Assembly (NCBI RefSeq): GCF_000264455.2
Contig: NC_017956.1
Span: 2,896,001-2,960,000, forward strand
Reading direction: 5' to 3'
Length of the DNA stretch: 64,000 nt
Origin: Tistrella mobilis KA081020-065
GTDB lineage: Bacteria; Pseudomonadota; Alphaproteobacteria; Tistrellales; Tistrellaceae
Positions 27,055 to 35,172 of this stretch are shown here, one piece after another (position 1 is the first letter of the stretch; every line of letters starts with the position of its first letter). Below the pieces are notes generated by a model, which made no database searches, was not told where the DNA came from, and worked only from the letters and a program-made list of their open reading frames with translations. Position numbers and translations under genes: made by a program.

Positions 27055-27909
27055 ATGTCAAACCAAGATCGCCGCCGACCGTCAAATCGTGATTCAACAC
27101 ATCGTGATCAGGCACGGGCCGGCCGCAGCCGCGGACGGGGCGACCAGGGCGGCCGCGAGACCGGCGGCGGGCTGTGGTTCTACGGCCGCCACCCGGTCGA
27201 GGCGGCGCTGGCCAATCCGGCGCGCAGCCTGCACCGGCTGCTGGTCGCGGAACGGTCCGAGGCCGCAAGCGACCCGAAACTCTCAAGCCTTGCCCGCCGG
27301 CGCAACCTGCAGATCGAAACCGTGCCCCGCGCCGAGATCGACCGGCGCTTCGGCGAGGATGCCGTCCATCAGGGGCTGGCTTTGCAGCTCGCCCCCCTGC
27401 CCGAGCGCGATCTTGAGGCGACGCTCGCCGCCGTGCCCGAGGGGCCGGCGCTGATCGTGGTGCTGGACCAGGTGACCGACCCGCATAATGTGGGCGCGAT
27501 CCTGCGGGCCGCCGCCGCCTTCGGCGCGGCCGCAGTGATCACCACCGAACGGCGGGCGGCGCCCGAAAGCGCCGTGCTCGCCAAGGCCGCTTCGGGCACG
27601 CTCGAACTCGTGCCGCTGGTCCAGATCGGCAACCTCGCCCGCGCGCTCGACGAGCTGAAGCGGCTGGGCTGGTGGTGCGTGGGCCTCGACGGCCATGCGA
27701 CACAGGATGTCCGCGCCGCCGGCCTGCCCGAGCGCCTGGCCCTGGTGATGGGCGCCGAAGGCCCGGGGCTGCGCCGGCTGACCCGCGAGACCTGCGACCT
27801 GCTGCTGCGCCTGCCGATTTCGGACCAGGTGGAGAGCCTGAACGTCGCCACCGCGACCGCCGTCGCCCTTTATGCGCTGGGCCCCAGCCGGGGCGCTTCG
27901 GGCGCCTGA
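27055..27909 (+). CDS. rlmB: 23S rRNA (guanosine-2'-O)-methyltransferase, TrmH/RlmB family
   Basis: SPOUT methyltransferase, 284 residues, that most likely methylates G2251 of 23S rRNA. The N-terminal substrate-binding domain opens after a basic, disordered ~40-residue stretch (WFYGRHPVEAALANPARSLH). SPOUT motifs are VLDQVTDPHNVGAILRAAAA (motif 1), LVMGAEGPGLRRL (motif 2) and LPISDQVESLNVATATAVAL (motif 3, the cofactor knot). A GAGGA binding site precedes the start. Its last 40 bases overlap the convergent histidine-kinase gene. Confidence 0.9.
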   Translation: MSNQDRRRPSNRDSTHRDQARAGRSRGRGDQGGRETGGGLWFYGRHPVEAALANPARSLHRLLVAERSEAASDPKLSSLARRRNLQIETVPRAEIDRRFGEDAVHQGLALQLAPLPERDLEATLAAVPEGPALIVVLDQVTDPHNVGAILRAAAAFGAAAVITTERRAAPESAVLAKAASGTLELVPLVQIGNLARALDELKRLGWWCVGLDGHATQDVRAAGLPERLALVMGAEGPGLRRLTRETCDLLLRLPISDQVESLNVATATAVALYALGPSRGASGA

Positions 27910-29366
27910 TCCAGCGGCCGGGGGGCGGCCCCCTCGCGCGGCAGCCTCAACTCTACGGCGAGCCCGGGCATGGGCTCGCCGGGTGCCGTGTCGGACAGCA
28001 CCAGCCGCCCGCCATGCAGCCGGGCCACGGCATCGGCAAGCGCAAGCCCCAGGCCGCTTCCGGGGCGGCTGCGCGCCGGATCCAGCCGGGCATAGCGCTC
28101 CACCACCCGCGCGCGTTCCGCCGCCGGAACGCCGGCTCCGCGATCCTCCACCCTGATCACGATCCAGTCCCCGTTCGCCTCGACGGCGAGGCGGATCACC
28201 ACCGGCCCGGCGCCGTGTTTCAGGCTGTTCTCCAGCAGATTGGCCACCGCCCGCTGCAGCAGCGCCCGGTCACCCGGCCGGGTGATGTCGGGCGTGAGAA
28301 CGCTGGTGACCGGCCGGCCCTCGTCCTCGAAGGGCAATTCGTAGATCTCGGCCAGTTCCGCGACCAGCGCCGAGATGTCCACCGGCGCCCAGGCGGTGCG
28401 GCCGGCGCCGCTTTCGGCGCGGGCGATGGTGGTCAGCGCCTCGAAGGTCTGGATCACCCGGTCGATTTCCGCCACCGCCTCGTCGAGCCCGGCGCGGGCC
28501 GCGGCACCATCGCCGCGCCCGACCGCCGCCGCCGCGTCTTCGGCCGACACGCGGGCCCGGGCCAGCGGCCCGCGCAGATCATGGGCCATAGCGTCCGAGG
28601 CGAGCCGGCTTGCGGTCATCAGCCGGGCGATCTCGTCGAGCATCGCATTCACCGCATCCGCCAGACGGTCGTATTCATCGCCGCTGCCGGCTACCGGAAG
28701 CCGCTTCTCCATGTCGCCGGCCATGATCCGGCGCGCGGCCTGGGCCATGGCATCCACCCGGGCGAGCGATCGCCGGGCCAGGATCCAGCCGCCATAGAGC
28801 CCGAGCAGCAGCACCAGCCCCATCGACCAGGCAGAGGCCTCGGTCACCAGCTCGCGGAACCGGGCGCGCTCGGCCAGATCCCGACCGACCAGCAGGCGGA
28901 AGCCGCCCGCCAGCTGATAGACCCGGACCCGGGCGGTGCGGCCGTCGGCCAGTTCGGCATCGATGGCGCCGTCGGCGGTCACCTCGGCGGCCCGCGGCCA
29001 GGCATCAAGCGTGCCCTCGATCGGTACGCCGTCGGGGGCCGCCAGCAGGTAGATGCCGCCCAGCCCCATGCCGGGCGTGGCGCCCGGATTGGGCCCGGGC
29101 CGGCCGCGCGGCGCACCGGATCGTGCCCGCACCACCTCGATCAGCCGGCCCAGCCCCTCGATCCGGTACTGTTCGGCCAGGCCCCGCACCTCGGCATCCA
29201 GGGTCTGGTCGATCTGCTGGTCGATGAGCGTCAGCGCCGCCCAGGTCACCGCCCCCAGCACGATGCCGGTCGAGGCCACGAAAACCGCCAGATACATCGC
29301 AACGATGCGCGCGGCCGATGTCCGGCGCAGATGCCGGAACAGACCGGCCGCATCAGCGGTCATCAT
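27870..29366 (-). CDS. Sensor histidine kinase (HAMP, HisKA, HATPase)
   Basis: Membrane sensor kinase of 498 residues. Membrane helices lie near residues 20-45 and 179-198 and enclose a periplasmic sensor region. HAMP follows, then the phospho-acceptor box MAHDLRGPL with His262, N-box LLENSLKHG (Asn380), and G-boxes EDRGAGVP and GSGLGLALAD. The stimulus is unknown. It overlaps the upstream regulator gene by 14 nt, so the pair is co-translated. Its C-terminal codons overlap rlmB on the other strand. Confidence 0.92.
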   Translation of the reverse strand: MMTADAAGLFRHLRRTSAARIVAMYLAVFVASTGIVLGAVTWAALTLIDQQIDQTLDAEVRGLAEQYRIEGLGRLIEVVRARSGAPRGRPGPNPGATPGMGLGGIYLLAAPDGVPIEGTLDAWPRAAEVTADGAIDAELADGRTARVRVYQLAGGFRLLVGRDLAERARFRELVTEASAWSMGLVLLLGLYGGWILARRSLARVDAMAQAARRIMAGDMEKRLPVAGSGDEYDRLADAVNAMLDEIARLMTASRLASDAMAHDLRGPLARARVSAEDAAAAVGRGDGAAARAGLDEAVAEIDRVIQTFEALTTIARAESGAGRTAWAPVDISALVAELAEIYELPFEDEGRPVTSVLTPDITRPGDRALLQRAVANLLENSLKHGAGPVVIRLAVEANGDWIVIRVEDRGAGVPAAERARVVERYARLDPARSRPGSGLGLALADAVARLHGGRLVLSDTAPGEPMPGLAVELRLPREGAAPRPLDQAPEAPRLGPSA

Positions 29367-30069
29367 GCTCTCCGTCTCCTCCGGCCGGCACCGGATCCTC
29401 CATGCCCAGCGAATAGCCGCCGCCGCGATGGGTGCGGATCAGCGGTCGACCGAAACCCTTGTCGATCTTCTGGCGCAGCCGGCTGACATGGACCTCGACC
29501 ACATTGGTCTGGGGTTCGAAATGGAAGTCCCAGACCCCTTCATAGAGCATGGCCCGGGTCACCACCTGGCCTTCGTGGCGCATCAGGAATTCGAGCAGCC
29601 GGTATTCCTGCGGCCGGAGGTCGATGGCGCGGCCGGCGCGGGTCACCCGCCTGGTGCGCAGGTCGACCTCCAGATCCGCCACCACAAGCCGGTCGGTGGC
29701 GGTGGCCTGCACCGGTCGGCGGCCCAGCGCTTCGACCCGCGCCACCAGTTCCACGGCGGCGAAGGGTTTGGAGAGATAGTCGTCGCCGCCGGCCTTCAGG
29801 CCACGCACGCGTTCATCCACATGGGCCAGCGCCGAGAGGATCAGCACCGGCACCCCCTGACCGGCCCCCCGCAGCGCGCCCAGCACCGCCAGCCCGTCCA
29901 GCCCCGGCAGCATGCGGTCGAGCACGATCACGTCATAGCCGCCGCCGGTGGCGAGAAACAGCCCCTCGCGCCCATCGGGTGCCCGGTCGACGACGTGGCC
30001 GGCCTCGGTCAGCGCGCGCGTCGCCTGCTGGGCGGTGCGGTCGTCATCCTCGATGATCAGGATCTTCAT
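29353..30069 (-). CDS. OmpR/PhoB-family response regulator
   Basis: Transcription factor of 238 residues, partner of the overlapping kinase. The receiver domain has ILIIEDDDR (acidic pocket), phospho-acceptor Asp51 in DVIVLDRMLPG and the conserved Lys in YLSKPF. The C-terminal winged helix has LRPQEYRLLEFLMRHEGQVV and NVVEVHVSRLRQKIDKGFGR. I start at the ATG at 30069 (MKILIIEDD); the open frame upstream is not receiver-like. It follows the HtrA protease gene on the same strand, so envelope stress is a plausible signal (inference). Confidence 0.92.
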   Translation of the reverse strand: MKILIIEDDDRTAQQATRALTEAGHVVDRAPDGREGLFLATGGGYDVIVLDRMLPGLDGLAVLGALRGAGQGVPVLILSALAHVDERVRGLKAGGDDYLSKPFAAVELVARVEALGRRPVQATATDRLVVADLEVDLRTRRVTRAGRAIDLRPQEYRLLEFLMRHEGQVVTRAMLYEGVWDFHFEPQTNVVEVHVSRLRQKIDKGFGRPLIRTHRGGGYSLGMEDPVPAGGDGEHDDR

Positions 30070-30269
30070 GGGCCGGCATGTCCCGAAGCATTGGGCAGAA
30101 GAGTTCAGGGAAGGGTATCGCAAGCCCCGGTCAGAAGACGGAGCGGGCGGGCACCCCCGGAATGGTGGCACCCGCCCGCATCCCCCCGCAAGCATCGCAT
30201 CTGCCCTGCGCTGCCCGCGGGTCTTGGATCCGGAGCGACCAGGAGGGAGGGTCAGCCGCTCCGGAAGGC

Positions 30270-30324: not shown

Positions 30325-31881
30325 TCACTTGATCTCGACCGCGACGAAGCGGCTTTCATTGCCGCGGGCGACCAGCAGCAGGACATGATCGCGCTTGCGG
30401 GCGCGGGCCTCGTCGATCAGCGCCGTCACCTGCGACGGGCGGTCGACCGCGGTGCCGGCCACCTGCTCGATCACGTCGCCGGGGCGCAGCTCCGGGCCGG
30501 GGCCGGCATGGGGCCGCTTGTCGTCGCCTTTGGGCGGCAGGATGTCGACCACGGCCACGCCCTTGACGCTGTCGTCGATGCCCAGCCGCTGGCGCAGCCC
30601 GTCATCGATCGGGGCCAGGCGCACGCCCAGCGCATCCACCGCCACACCGGCGCCCGGATCTGCATGATCGCCCTGCTGGTTGGCCGCCAGATCCTGCGGA
30701 CGCTCGCCCAGGCGGATGCGGATCTCCTTCTCATCGCCCTGGCGCTTCACCGCCAGCCCGACCCGGTCGCCCGGCTGCAGATCGCCCACCTTGCGGGTCA
30801 GATCGCGGGCATCCTTCACCGGCTGGCCGTCGATCTGCACCACCACATCGCCGCGTTCCAGCCCGGCATCACCCGCCGGGCTGCCCGGCAGCACCCGGGC
30901 GACCAGCGCGCCTTCGGGCTTGTCCATGCCCAGCGCCTCGGCGATTTCAGGCGTCAGCGGCTGGATTTCAACACCCAGCCAACCGCGGGAGATGCTGCCG
31001 CTTTCCTTCAGCTGCGCCACCACCTTGGTCGCGATATTGGCCGGGATCGAAAAGCCGATGCCGACCGACCCGCCATTGGGGCTGTAGATGGCGGTGTTGA
31101 TGCCGATCACCTTGCCGCTTTCGTCGAAGACCGGGCCGCCGCTGTTGCCGCGGTTGATCGCGGCATCGATCTGCAGGAAATCGTCGTAGGGGCCGGCATT
31201 GATGTCGCGGTTGCGGGCCGAGACGATGCCGGCGGTCACCGTGCCGCCCAGGCCGAACGGGTTGCCGACCGCCAGCACCCAGTCGCCCACCCGGGCGGCG
31301 TCGCTGTCGCCGAACTGAACCGCCGGCAGGTCGTGGCCGGCCTCGATCTTCAGCAGCGCAAGGTCTGTCAGCGGGTCGCGGCCCACCAGCTTGGCGGTGT
31401 ACTGGCTCTTGTCTTCCAGCGTGACCTTGATTTCCGTCGCGCCGTCGATGACGTGGTTGTTGGTCACGACATAGCCCGAGGGATCGATGATGAAGCCCGA
31501 TCCCAGCGCATTCACCACCTGGGGATGGGTCGGCTGCTGGCCCTGCATGAAGGGTTCGAAGAAGCGGCGGAAGGGGGAGTTCTCGGGCAGGTCGAAGGGC
31601 AGCATCTGCTCGGGCCCGCTCGGCTGCTGCACTTCCTGGGTGGTGGAGATGTTGACCACCGCCGGCATCACCTTCTCGGCCAGCGGTGCGAAGCTTTCGG
31701 GCAGCGATGCGGCATTGGCGGGCACCGGCGCGATCACCGTGCCGCCGACGGCGGCCAGCGGCAGGGCAAGCGCTACGCCGGCCATCAGCCCGGCGCCATA
31801 GCGGCGCAGGCGGTTGGCGTGGCGGCGGGCGGCGAAGTCGCGGGTGCGGATCGCGGCCGGCTGGGGAAGCTGTTCGGTCAT
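30325..31881 (-). CDS. Do/DegQ-type periplasmic serine protease (HtrA family)
   Basis: Envelope quality-control protease, 518 residues. A basic N-terminus and hydrophobic stretch (residues 30-58, ending PVPANA) form a signal peptide. The trypsin-like domain has the triad His143 (TNNHVIDG), Asp173 (DPLTDLALLKI) and Ser247 (NRGNSGGPVFDE). Two PDZ domains follow: the first with GWLGVEIQPLTPEIAEALGM and RGDVVVQIDGQPV, the second ending in RPGDVIEQVAGTAVD. Closest in layout to DegP/MucD. It lies upstream of the two-component pair. Confidence 0.92.
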   Translation of the reverse strand: MTEQLPQPAAIRTRDFAARRHANRLRRYGAGLMAGVALALPLAAVGGTVIAPVPANAASLPESFAPLAEKVMPAVVNISTTQEVQQPSGPEQMLPFDLPENSPFRRFFEPFMQGQQPTHPQVVNALGSGFIIDPSGYVVTNNHVIDGATEIKVTLEDKSQYTAKLVGRDPLTDLALLKIEAGHDLPAVQFGDSDAARVGDWVLAVGNPFGLGGTVTAGIVSARNRDINAGPYDDFLQIDAAINRGNSGGPVFDESGKVIGINTAIYSPNGGSVGIGFSIPANIATKVVAQLKESGSISRGWLGVEIQPLTPEIAEALGMDKPEGALVARVLPGSPAGDAGLERGDVVVQIDGQPVKDARDLTRKVGDLQPGDRVGLAVKRQGDEKEIRIRLGERPQDLAANQQGDHADPGAGVAVDALGVRLAPIDDGLRQRLGIDDSVKGVAVVDILPPKGDDKRPHAGPGPELRPGDVIEQVAGTAVDRPSQVTALIDEARARKRDHVLLLVARGNESRFVAVEIK

Positions 31882-32021
31882 GGCGTCAGATCCTCGGTCA
31901 GTGCAGCCTGCCCCCGGCGGGGAGGAGCGTTGGGGGAAGCAGAGAGGGGGAAGACCTCTCCCCGGCTGCGTCGTCGAGGATCATTCAAGCAGCCGGGCCC
32001 TCACCGCCGGATGTCAGGAAC

Positions 32022-32037
32022 ATGAACGCCCGTTCAT
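32022..32037. promoter_or_regulatory. Palindrome upstream of the HtrA-type gene
   Basis: ATGAACG-CC-CGTTCAT, a perfect 7+2+7 palindrome about 140 nt upstream of the protease start. It is a possible binding site for a dimeric regulator; identity unknown. Confidence 0.35.
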
Positions 32038-32056
32038 CTTTCCGACCTTCGTAGCC

Positions 32057-32085
32057 TTGTCCCGATCACCGTCACGCGGTATGTA
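32057..32085 (+). promoter_or_regulatory. Candidate promoter of tRNA-Thr
   Basis: TTGTCC, 17-nt spacer, TATGTA, about 75 nt upstream of the mature tRNA-Thr 5' end. Confidence 0.4.
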
Positions 32086-32159
32086 GTGCGGGTGCCGTCG
32101 CGCACAGGCTGTACCCGGCCCCGGCCGGGACGCGTCCCGGGCCCGATGCGGCGCCGGCT

Positions 32160-32235
32160 GCCGGATTAGCTCAATTGGTAGAGCACCCGCCTTGTAAGCG
32201 GAAGGTTGTGGGTTCAAGTCCCCCATCCGGCACCA
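32160..32235 (+). tRNA. tRNA-Thr (anticodon TGT)
   Basis: 76 nt with encoded CCA. Acceptor GCCGGAT/ATCCGGC, D arm GCTC/GAGC, anticodon loop CTTGTAA, T loop TTCAAGT. Two stems carry a non-pairing position (27 C opposite 43 A, and 50 T opposite 64 C); the rest is canonical. Confidence 0.93.
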
Positions 32236-32364
32236 GCGCGGCCCCCGCTCAGATGTCCCGCCCGCTGCACGCCACGACCATCCCCAGCACGACCCGCCAC
32301 GGCTCCGGTTACCGGCTTCACACAGCCTTTTCGGGAACGTCACTTCACCTGTGACCGCCGTCAC

Positions 32365-32392
32365 TTCACGTGCGTCCGCCGTTTCCTATAGT
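32365..32392 (+). promoter_or_regulatory. Promoter of the predicted small RNA
   Basis: TTCACG, 16-nt spacer, TATAGT, predicting initiation near 32399. A direct repeat GTCACTTCAC occurs twice just upstream and around the -35 and could be an operator. Confidence 0.5.
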
Positions 32393-32398
32393 GACTTG

Positions 32399-32546
32399 CG
32401 TAGCCGTGATGCCGGCGGCAGCTCCCACTCCCCGGCATCCCGTCCATTCTGGCGCCCGTGCCCGGATGGACCCTACCCGATTGGTGCTGATGCTTGACTT
32501 GAGCCCCGCCCGGCGCGTCCGCGTGCCTTGCGGGGCTTTCTTTTTG
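32399..32546 (+). ncRNA. Predicted small RNA of about 148 nt
   Basis: A promoter and a strong intrinsic terminator bracket a stretch without a plausible ORF. It can fold into three consecutive hairpins: GATGCCGG/CCGGCATC (32408-32439), GTCCAT/ATGGAC (32442-32471) and the terminator stem (32502-32537). The first loop contains CTCCCACTCCC, complementary to Shine-Dalgarno sequences, as in several alphaproteobacterial trans-acting sRNAs. The separate hairpins do not look like 6S RNA, and the SRP RNA consensus loop is absent. Family and targets unknown. Confidence 0.6.
32502..32545 (+). terminator. Rho-independent terminator of the small RNA
   Basis: Perfect 8-bp stem AGCCCCGC/GCGGGGCT followed by TTCTTTTT. 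This is the most canonical intrinsic terminator in the window. It lies 220 nt upstream of the molybdoenzyme gene. Confidence 0.85.
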
Positions 32547-32766
32547 TCCTGACGCCGCCCGCGCTTCACCGCAACGCAACAATGTGTTGTGCACTGCGGG
32601 CGGGCGGCCTGATCCACAGTCGGCACAACCTGCCCGATTCTTAGGCAGCCCCTGAACGACTCGGATGGAGTCAGGGGGTTGGACTCGTTGTCCACAGACT
32701 TCTCCACCAGAACGGGGGAAAAGCTGGAGGCTTCCAGCGGACCGCAGGCGCAGCTAGTCTGAGGGG

Positions 32767-35172
32767 ATGAGTGATCGTTCCATCGAACCGGGCGCCACCG
32801 GTACCCATCCGACCCGCTGGCTGATGACCCATTACGGGCCCTATCAGGCCGGCCTGGACGCGGCCGGCCGGCCGCAGCTTGCGCCCGATCCCGCGGATCC
32901 GGCGCCGACGCCGCTTGGCCTGGCGCTGGCGGAGGTGGATCACCGGCTGCGCATCCGCCGCCCCGCCGCCCGCAGCACCTGGCTTGCGGCGGTGGAAGCG
33001 GGCCGCGATCCGGAAGGGACCGGGCGCGGCGAGGCCCCCTTCGTGGAACTGCCCTGGGACGAGGCGCTGGATCTGGCGGCCGCCGAACTGGCCCGCATCC
33101 ATCGCGACCACGGCCCCACCGCCATCTATGGCGGCAGCTATGGCTGGGGCTCCGCCGGCTGGTTCCACCGTGCCCGCGCCCAGCTGCACCGGCTGCTGGC
33201 CGCCGCCGGCGGCTTCACCATGGGGGTCGGCACCTATTCCCACGGCGCGGCCGAGCGGATGATCCCGCATGTTCTGGGGCTGGATTTCGCCGCCGCCGGC
33301 GCCGCCGCCCCCGATTGGGACGAGATCGCGGCCACGACCGACATCCTGTTGAGCTTCGGCGGCATCCCGCTGCGCAACACCCAGCTCGACTGGGGCGGCA
33401 TCCCCGGCCACCGGGTGGGTGCCGCGCTGGAACGCGCGCTCGATCGCGGCCTCGACATGGTCACCGTGGCGCCGATGGCCGATGATGCGGCCGCGGCCGG
33501 CCGGGCCCGATGGCTCCGCATCCGCCCCGGCACCGATGTCGCGCTGATCCTGGCTCTGCTGCATGTGCTGGTCAGCGAAGGGCTGATCGACCGGCCGGCG
33601 CTGGACCGGCTCACCCATGGCTGGCCGGTGCTGGAAGCCCATATCCTGGGCCGCGACGGCACGCCGCCCAAAACCCCGGCCTGGGCGGCCGGCATCACCG
33701 GCATCGCGGATGCCGCCATCACCGCCCTCGCCCGAAGGCTCGCCGGCCGCCGGGCGGTGATCGCCATGGCCTGGGGCGTGCAGCGCCACCAGAATGGCGA
33801 GATGGCGGTTTGGGCCGCCCATGCCCTGGCGGCGGCGCTGGGCCAGATCGGCCTGCCCGGCGGCGGGGTCGGCATCGGCTATGGCGCCGGCGGCGGCTTC
33901 GGCCTGCCCCAGACCGGGCGCCGCCCGGGGCTGATCGGGGCCTTGCCCAACCCCAACGGCATGGAGGTGCCGGTCTCGCGCTTCGCCGACATCCTGCTCG
34001 CCCCCGGCGCCACCATCGATCACGACGGCCGCCGGATCACCGCCCCCGATATCCGGCTGGTCTGGTGGGCGGGCGGCAACCCCTTCCACCATCATCAGGA
34101 TCTGAACCGGCTGATCCGCGCCTGGGCGGTGCCGCGCACGATCATCGTGCAGGATATGGTCTGGACCCAGGCCGCCCGCCGCGCCGATCTGGTCCTGCCC
34201 GCCACCGGGCCGCTGGAACGCGCCGATATCGCGGGCGGTCTGCAGGGCCCCACGATCATCGCCGCCGATGCGCTGGTGCCGCCGGTGGCGGAGGCCCGCG
34301 ACGATCACGCCATCCTGGCGGCCATCGCCGACCGGCTGGGCTGCCGCTCAGCCTTCGATGACGGGCTCGACGCCGAAGCCTGGCTCGCCCGGCTCTGGGA
34401 CCGCGCCCGCAGCGGCACCGACGATCTTCCCGATCTGGCCGGGCTGCGCGCCGCAGGCCGCATCGACCCGCCCCCCCTGCCCGATGCCGTCCGCACCCGC
34501 GCCGGGAGGCTTGCCCGCTTCCGCGCCGATCCCGCGGCCGACCCGCTGCCGACGCCTTCGGGGCGCATCGAACTGGCATCGGACAGGATCGCGGCGATGG
34601 GGCTTCCGGGCCATCCCTGCTGGCAGCCGCCGGCGGAATGGGCGGGCAGCGACCTCACCGCCCGTTTCCCCCTGCATCTGCTATCGCCCCAGCCGGCGAC
34701 GCGGCTGCACGGCCAGCTGGACCATGCCGCCCCCTCGCTTGCGGCCAAGCATGACGGGCGCGAGCGGGTGATGCTGCATCCGGAAGATGCCGCCGCCCGC
34801 GGTATTGCCGACGGCGACTGCGTGATGATCTGGAATGATCGCGGTGCCTGCCTTGCCGCGGCCCGCCTCTCCACCGACATCATGCCCGGCGTGGCGGCCC
34901 TGCCGACCGGCGCCTGGTATGATCCCTCTCCCACCCTGAAGGATGCCGCCGGCCGGCCGGTCTGCCGCCACGGCAATCCCAACCTGCTCACCCGCGATGC
35001 CGGCTCTTCGCCGATCGCCCAGGCGCCGGCCGCCCAGACCTGTCTGGTCGACATCCGGCGCGTCGATCCGGCCACCGCCGCCGCGGAACGCCCCAGCCCC
35101 TATGAAGGCCCGATGTTCGCAGATCGAGACACCGTAACCACCGCCAGCCCCGACACCGGACCCGCCGCATGA
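32767..35172 (+). CDS. Molybdopterin oxidoreductase, BisC/DMSO-reductase family
   Basis: Bis-MGD molybdoenzyme of 801 residues, probably a cytoplasmic S- or N-oxide reductase like BisC (biotin or methionine sulfoxide). No Tat signal and no N-terminal Fe-S cysteines. Active-site residues fit the DMSO-reductase group: Tyr125 and Trp127 in GSYGWG, and the Mo-ligand Ser158 in GTYSHGAAE. All three are exactly 11 residues offset from Y114, W116 and S147 of the Rhodobacter enzyme as I recall it. The C-terminal MopB domain has LSPQPATRLHGQLDH. It overlaps the ABC gene by 4 nt. Confidence 0.85.
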   Translation: MSDRSIEPGATGTHPTRWLMTHYGPYQAGLDAAGRPQLAPDPADPAPTPLGLALAEVDHRLRIRRPAARSTWLAAVEAGRDPEGTGRGEAPFVELPWDEALDLAAAELARIHRDHGPTAIYGGSYGWGSAGWFHRARAQLHRLLAAAGGFTMGVGTYSHGAAERMIPHVLGLDFAAAGAAAPDWDEIAATTDILLSFGGIPLRNTQLDWGGIPGHRVGAALERALDRGLDMVTVAPMADDAAAAGRARWLRIRPGTDVALILALLHVLVSEGLIDRPALDRLTHGWPVLEAHILGRDGTPPKTPAWAAGITGIADAAITALARRLAGRRAVIAMAWGVQRHQNGEMAVWAAHALAAALGQIGLPGGGVGIGYGAGGGFGLPQTGRRPGLIGALPNPNGMEVPVSRFADILLAPGATIDHDGRRITAPDIRLVWWAGGNPFHHHQDLNRLIRAWAVPRTIIVQDMVWTQAARRADLVLPATGPLERADIAGGLQGPTIIAADALVPPVAEARDDHAILAAIADRLGCRSAFDDGLDAEAWLARLWDRARSGTDDLPDLAGLRAAGRIDPPPLPDAVRTRAGRLARFRADPAADPLPTPSGRIELASDRIAAMGLPGHPCWQPPAEWAGSDLTARFPLHLLSPQPATRLHGQLDHAAPSLAAKHDGRERVMLHPEDAAARGIADGDCVMIWNDRGACLAAARLSTDIMPGVAALPTGAWYDPSPTLKDAAGRPVCRHGNPNLLTRDAGSSPIAQAPAAQTCLVDIRRVDPATAAAERPSPYEGPMFADRDTVTTASPDTGPAA

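Follow-up and report, generated by a model that had tools for sequence, protein, structure and literature searches.

Two described small RNAs stand closest to the locus analysed here. The first, alpha-r14 (NfeR1) of Sinorhizobium meliloti, is a short trans-acting sRNA with three predicted hairpins and an identical CCUCCUCCC motif in an unpaired region of each of the three (PMC10746234). The second, GsrN of Caulobacter, is driven by sigma-EcfG and has an exposed C-rich loop near its 5' end and an intrinsic terminator; its BLAST matches are confined to one bacterial family, in which the gene is typically found close to those of the general stress response, although C. crescentus is an exception (PMC5869019).

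A predicted 148-nt RNA in the window (the whole 64,000-nt stretch of Tistrella mobilis DNA that was analysed) resembles each of these in part. Like alpha-r14, it has three hairpins and a C-rich, anti-Shine-Dalgarno-type sequence that is unpaired; unlike alpha-r14, it lacks CCUCCUCCC and carries a single C-rich loop of other sequence (PMC10746234). It shares with GsrN an exposed C-rich loop near the 5' end, an intrinsic terminator and a narrow range, but differs in having no EcfG pattern at its promoter and in its five neighbour genes, which by Pfam are not of the general-stress kind (PMC5869019). A preliminary description had likened its loop to those of several alphaproteobacterial sRNAs, a likeness that holds insofar as the loop is predicted to be open and might pair with Shine-Dalgarno sequences, but that does not extend to the alpha-r14 motif. 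The sRNA may work like NfeR1 or GsrN, while belonging to neither by the features compared.

We put the probability that this element is a real sRNA gene at roughly 90%; it is very probably of an ordinary kind, constituting a new genus-level sRNA family. It adds a well-delimited sRNA candidate without an Rfam match at gathering score, in the sole genus of its order among those searched. Because it is kept almost base for base and has only one C-rich loop, it offers a clean test of repeated origin of anti-Shine-Dalgarno loops in Alphaproteobacteria, and the conserved repeat pair at its promoter gives a handle on the regulator of the sRNA.

Limits, fold and coding potential

The element sits between tRNA-Thr(TGT) and a bisC-like molybdopterin S/N-oxide reductase gene in a 6.5 Mb alphaproteobacterial genome of five contigs (G000). 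It was compared with two further genomes of the genus, one of the same species (G041) and one of another (G001), and the order of tRNA-Thr, sRNA and bisC-type gene is preserved in both; among the genomes available for the searches below, the order is represented by these three alone. The features of the locus are as follows.

27870-29366: HAMP/HATPase histidine kinase gene, next in the divergent row
29353-30102: response regulator gene of OmpR/PhoB type, following the DegP-type gene in the same divergent row
30325..31881, minus strand: trypsin/PDZ (DegP-type) protease gene, divergent neighbour beyond tRNA-Thr
32160..32235, plus strand: tRNA-Thr(TGT), upstream neighbour on the same strand as the predicted sRNA
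32399..32546, plus strand: predicted sRNA, 148 nt, from the start of the invariant run to the terminator end; one strong match per genus genome
32408..32439, plus strand: hairpin 1, stem GAUGCCGG/CCGGCAUC, with C-rich apical loop (fold prediction)
32442..32471, plus strand: hairpin 2, stem GUCCAUUC/GGAUGGAC (fold prediction)
32501..32546, plus strand: intrinsic terminator hairpin (32501-32538) and U-rich tail (scan and fold)
32767..35172, plus strand: molybdopterin S/N-oxide reductase gene, downstream neighbour (profile match, best model the bisC family at 736 bits, below the model cut-off of 1018)

The preliminary description proposed about 148 nt folding into three hairpins, which is right if the terminator is counted as one of them. 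The fold of 32395-32546 reaches -71.7 kcal/mol (z -3.99), and none of 200 shuffled sequences was as stable. Taken alone, hairpin 1 has a z of -3.6 (3 of 500 shuffles as stable) and hairpin 2 of -3.4 (2 of 500), while the RNA body without the terminator (32399-32500) has a z of only -1.7, its stability being matched by 30 of 500 shuffles. The predicted structure further includes a small hairpin of 3 bp and a weak closing stem. The terminator, called textbook in that description, merits the word by its fold (z -4.7, 0 of 500 shuffles) but not by a simple terminator scan, which returned one site in 31800-33000 against 0.6 (sd 0.8) in shuffles and so is not above chance; the evidence for the terminator is therefore the fold and not the scan.

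Conservation gives the element its limits. In a three-way alignment of the genus genomes over 30865-33815, the longest run identical in all three is 120 nt (32399-32518), extending from 7 nt past the -10 box into the terminator loop, and the runners-up are two runs of 74 nt, both coding. Across the predicted sRNA, the start of which is placed at 32399 +/- 1, 146 of 148 positions are identical, and the two substitutions, at 32519 in the terminator loop and at 32529 in an internal loop, both fall at bases that are unpaired in the predicted structure. Identity is lower to either side: 73/103 and 60/78 in the adjoining spacers (71-77%), 84% at the third codon positions of the two neighbouring genes, and 2/6 in the six bases that separate the -10 box from the predicted start. 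That conservation begins where the -10 box would place the start and lasts to the terminator is strong evidence for a functional RNA. Nearby non-coding blocks are highly conserved as well, so high conservation alone is not unique to the sRNA, although the longest unbroken identical runs in those blocks are 54 nt (31966-32159) and 60 nt (32625-32766). None of the 46 predicted base pairs varies among the three near-identical genus sequences.

These two blocks have features of their own. The first, between degP and tRNA-Thr, is identical at 188 of 194 positions in the three genomes and contains the palindrome TGAACGCCCGTTCA, which we take to be TetR-operator-like in appearance, as well as a promoter-like site for tRNA-Thr recognised by eye (TTGTCC-17-TATGTA). 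The second, immediately 5' of the bisC-type gene, is identical at 139 of 142 positions and contains a GACTC/GAGTC hairpin together with TTGTCCACA, and the region 32600-32780 folds no better than its shuffles (z -0.4). A replication origin was considered for this region and rejected: there is a single TTNTCCACA match, at 32688, and the GC skew keeps its sign there. Viral contigs searched with degP held no relative.

The position of the element ahead of the reductase gene raises a different reading, in which the RNA is a cis-acting leader of that gene, a riboswitch-like attenuator with a multi-branched sensor followed by a signal-switched terminator. Both lie on the same strand in a conserved gene order, the RNA body is invariant in the three genomes, and the predicted weakly closed multi-branch domain followed by a terminator does resemble an aptamer plus terminator. 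However, the terminator ends 220 nt short of the reading frame, with the separate conserved block 32625-32766 in between; its 5' arm pairs upstream with a probability of at most 0.03 in the full RNA, and holding its 3' arm open costs about 15 kcal/mol, so that no good antiterminator is seen. No riboswitch family in Rfam reached its gathering score or was among the four matches up to E 10, and we consider an attenuator quite improbable. It is very hard to credit, although it can be imagined, that a genus-restricted RNA switch combines both functions. Its invariant multi-branched domain would respond to a ligand, such as a signal linked to the molybdenum cofactor or to S/N-oxides, and so control termination before the bisC-type gene, and the terminated RNA would double as a C-loop regulator of other mRNAs.

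Translation of the element itself seems most unlikely. The frame from ATG 32409, 47 amino acids long in G000, stays open across the invariant run in each of the three genomes, as a small-protein gene would, but it continues past the terminator to a stop that differs among all three. Over the 120 nt its third codon positions are no less invariant than the first and second, against 84% in the flanking genes, and neither a Shine-Dalgarno sequence in the 10-nt leader nor a protein family match was seen. Searches of Pfam and NCBIfam gave no match, and two minus-strand frames that are open in G041, the genome of the same species, are interrupted by stops in G001. By this comparison the predicted sRNA has no conserved coding potential. 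An unannotated, independently transcribed structured sRNA, as first proposed, is much the best reading, with conservation limits that fit the predicted start and terminator and no open reading frame kept in the second species.

Distribution and family resemblance

No Rfam family matched the element at gathering score. Rfam contains an alpha-r14 model, and none of the four weak matches up to E 10 bore that name. The best sRNA-type resemblance is to suhB/MmgR (RF00519), over the terminator and tail, at 14.8 bits against a gathering score of 41; membership in that family was rejected on this score, and true members occur over the cut-off at three places elsewhere in G000. Those three suhB/mmgR-family copies lie in a row (G000:C1:743793-744391), with a weaker one at C4:125847, and G001 and G041 likewise have three close copies and one weak. 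The sX13 family of Xanthomonadaceae (RF02232) has C-rich hairpin loops in common with the element and matched at 14.3 bits, which is below its gathering score of 50, with an E of 3.2 and over positions 43-110 of 115 only.

Searches for homologues returned little beyond the genus. BLAST of 221 nt of DNA against 41 genomes found matches in two, both of the genus. A covariance model run on 387 genomes gave nine at E <= 0.1, namely the three genus genomes and six weak matches with E of 0.004-0.055 per genome, values expected by chance over so many genomes; by alignment, none of the six, nor one weak extra match in G041, combines the C-rich loop with a strong terminator. Another draw of 385 genomes, overlapping the first, yielded two at E <= 0.01, both of the genus. 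Both covariance searches used strict filters and scored the best candidates in each genome, up to eight, so distant homologues may be missed and absence is not proven. In 80 degP-type loci of other organisms the best covariance match was 17.6 bits (E 0.13), and the 46 of these loci that were scanned for tRNAs had no tRNA-Thr near degP. An exact 26-mer had no match in general genome contigs, a set from which near relatives are possibly absent, and a plasmid search gave only two matches, at E 0.9. The expectation that the hairpins would be conserved in relatives is thus borne out in all three genus genomes, but nothing convincing was found outside them in the 387 and 385 genomes or the 80 degP loci. 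In a literature collection that lacks most subscription papers, no paper on Tistrella small RNAs was found, and a narrow search on anti-Shine-Dalgarno sRNAs returned none either.

Putative promoter and paired repeats

Upstream of the predicted start lies a promoter-like arrangement with the following parts.

32339..32348, plus strand: GTCACTTCAC, first copy, with the core GTCACTT; putative half-site for a regulator, at about -60; core kept in 3/3 genomes
32349..32354, plus strand: CTGTGA between the repeats, kept in 3/3 genomes by alignment; role putative
32360..32369, plus strand: second, exact copy of GTCACTTCAC, overlapping the -35 position; GTCACTT core kept in 3/3 genomes
32365..32370, plus strand: -35-like hexamer TTCACG of a sigma-70-type match; TTCGCG in both relatives
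32387..32392, plus strand: -10 hexamer TATAGT, kept in 3/3 genus genomes

The promoter-like site TTCACG-16-TATAGT is present as the preliminary description had it, and is the sole sigma-70-type match within 31800-33000 (shuffle mean 0.0). As a conserved -35, however, TTCACG did not hold up, being TTCGCG in both relatives, which keep the -10 and the GTCACTT cores. The sigma-EcfG consensus is GGAAC-N16/17-CGTT; the pattern GGAAC-N16-19-CGT occurs eight times in the window and nowhere at the sRNA promoter, and an EcfG promoter was rejected for want of a match there.

A direct repeat had also been noted near the -35, and it is indeed present: GTCACTTCAC occurs in two exact copies set 21 bp apart, and the window has no other exact match of GTCACTTCACNTG. 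At up to three mismatches GTCACTTCACNTG was found 19 times where 35 would be expected, which leaves the exact pair as the one notable occurrence. CTGTGA and the first GTCACTTCAC copy together form a TCAC-N7-GTGA inverted repeat. The perfect pair GTCACTT-N14-GTCACTT occurs once in each of the three genus genomes, at the sRNA locus alone. A large regulon sharing this pair was considered and rejected: at two mismatches the other matches number 9, 8 and 10 in G000, G041 and G001, at or near the level of a reversed-pattern control (8, 5 and 8).

A variable -35 hexamer next to conserved GTCACTT repeats suggests control by an activator, one that would act at a site specific to this promoter and not across a large regulon. 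The conservation of the repeats makes regulated expression of the predicted sRNA plausible. By its position alone, the adjacent OmpR/PhoB-type response regulator (29353-30102) is a candidate for this role. Of the envelope, oxidative and light stresses named in the preliminary description, the one feature with any bearing is the DegP-type protease gene close by.

The RNA might instead be the 3' part of the tRNA-Thr transcript: the tRNA gene, which has the same orientation, stops 163 nt before it, and 31800-33000 contains no terminator-like site besides the one at the end of the sRNA. Yet the conserved -10 box and repeats lie in between, the spacer is poorly conserved (73/103), and conservation sets in sharply at 32399. 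A sponge RNA that binds and titrates a protein would be a related possibility, against which no repeated protein-binding motif was recognised by eye. We regard these two readings together as unlikely.

The C-rich loop and candidate targets

The apical loop of hairpin 1 contains the sequence on which pairing by the predicted sRNA would depend.

32422..32433, plus strand: C-rich CUCCCACUCCCC, putative anti-Shine-Dalgarno seed (accessibility prediction)

CTCCC occurs in the sRNA only at 32422 and 32428, both within hairpin 1. The C-rich loop motif CTCCCACTCCC reported in the preliminary description is present, but only its CUCCCA (32422-32427) is predicted to be open, unpaired at 0.99-1.0, while the second CUCCCC forms stem. 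Hfq is encoded in the genome (profile match of 110 bits), and from this gene, the open CUCCCA and the U-rich tail we infer a trans-acting sRNA that pairs with Shine-Dalgarno regions. Action in trans by base pairing is probable; anti-Shine-Dalgarno pairing is the likeliest mechanism, judging from the open C-rich loop, and for that loop as the main seed the chances appear evenly balanced.

The fullest explanation that we favour, at slightly better than even odds, is of an own-promoter, activator-boosted and Hfq-bound sRNA whose C-loop pairing blocks mRNA translation. A single-copy gene would be transcribed from about 32399 to the intrinsic terminator at about 32546, with transcription probably boosted by a regulator on the paired GTCACTT sites (about -60 and -39). 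Hfq would bind the RNA via its U-rich terminator tail, and the RNA would act in trans, its open hairpin 1 loop (CUCCCACUCCC) pairing with G-rich Shine-Dalgarno regions in a group of mRNAs and so blocking their translation.

Several scans sought such mRNAs. Complements of the 12-nt seed at up to one mismatch, counts that include the sRNA's own complement, are rarer than those of the reversed control (20 against 77 in G000, 21 against 66 in G041, 16 against 71 in G001), and four of these loci that were inspected (L056, L068, L071, L072) showed no clear leader site. Matches to GTGGGAG-N3-12-ATG number 48, 43 and 40 in G000, G041 and G001 against 29, 37 and 39 for the reversed control, and matches to GGGGAGT-N0-12-ATG 43, 42 and 40 against 10, 12 and 19. 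Since the use of Shine-Dalgarno sequences by itself places G-rich sites ahead of ATG, the excess does not count as evidence of targets. Twenty stretches of G000, picked by eye mostly for strings kept in the other genomes, were inspected, and most of their sites fall within probable coding sequence, on either strand, or belong to CRISPR-like repeats. Leader-like sites with the string whole or nearly so in all three genomes precede a flavin-reductase-like gene (L092), a D-amino-acid-dehydrogenase-like gene (L099), an ABC-permease gene (L096) and an Lrp/AsnC-type gene (L097), where recurrence is established for the string and the gene identity is that read in G000.

The Lrp/AsnC-type gene, with GGGGAGT in its leader, is our first-choice candidate target. 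The leader of this reading frame (L097 303-412, assigned by Pfam) contains GGGGAGTCGCCATGATGAACGGGAGTCACC, with two sites complementary to the sRNA loop; the string GGGGAGTCGCCATG occurs in all three genus genomes, and the second site, GGGAGT, was seen in G000 only. The longest match at a start codon, GGGGAGTGGGATG with 11 of 12 bases, lies at the likely start of an HlyD-type membrane-fusion gene (L083 1999-2011, G000:C4:674598-674610). As a conserved target this gene was rejected, because the same string in G001 falls in an unrelated frame; a search of 40 kb of G041, a region whose correspondence is a guess, did not turn up the string. For a crude set of 31 leaders in the window, the strongest duplex had an energy of -13.8 kcal/mol when the first start was taken (mean -7.9) and of -14.1 kcal/mol when alternative starts were allowed, and two candidate leaders whose strings occur in all three genomes reached -14.3 and -16.1 kcal/mol, values for hand-picked sites scored without accessibility. 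No candidate stands out fairly above the leader background, and we therefore claim no target.

Among the stretches inspected is a CRISPR-like array (L085 1645-1955, G000:C2 about 412,240-412,560) in which the repeat GTTTCCATGACCGGAGCCATTGGTCATGGCTTCAAAC occurs in five copies at a spacing of 66-69 nt, and similar repeats are visible in the reading frames of L084 (C2 about 372 kb).
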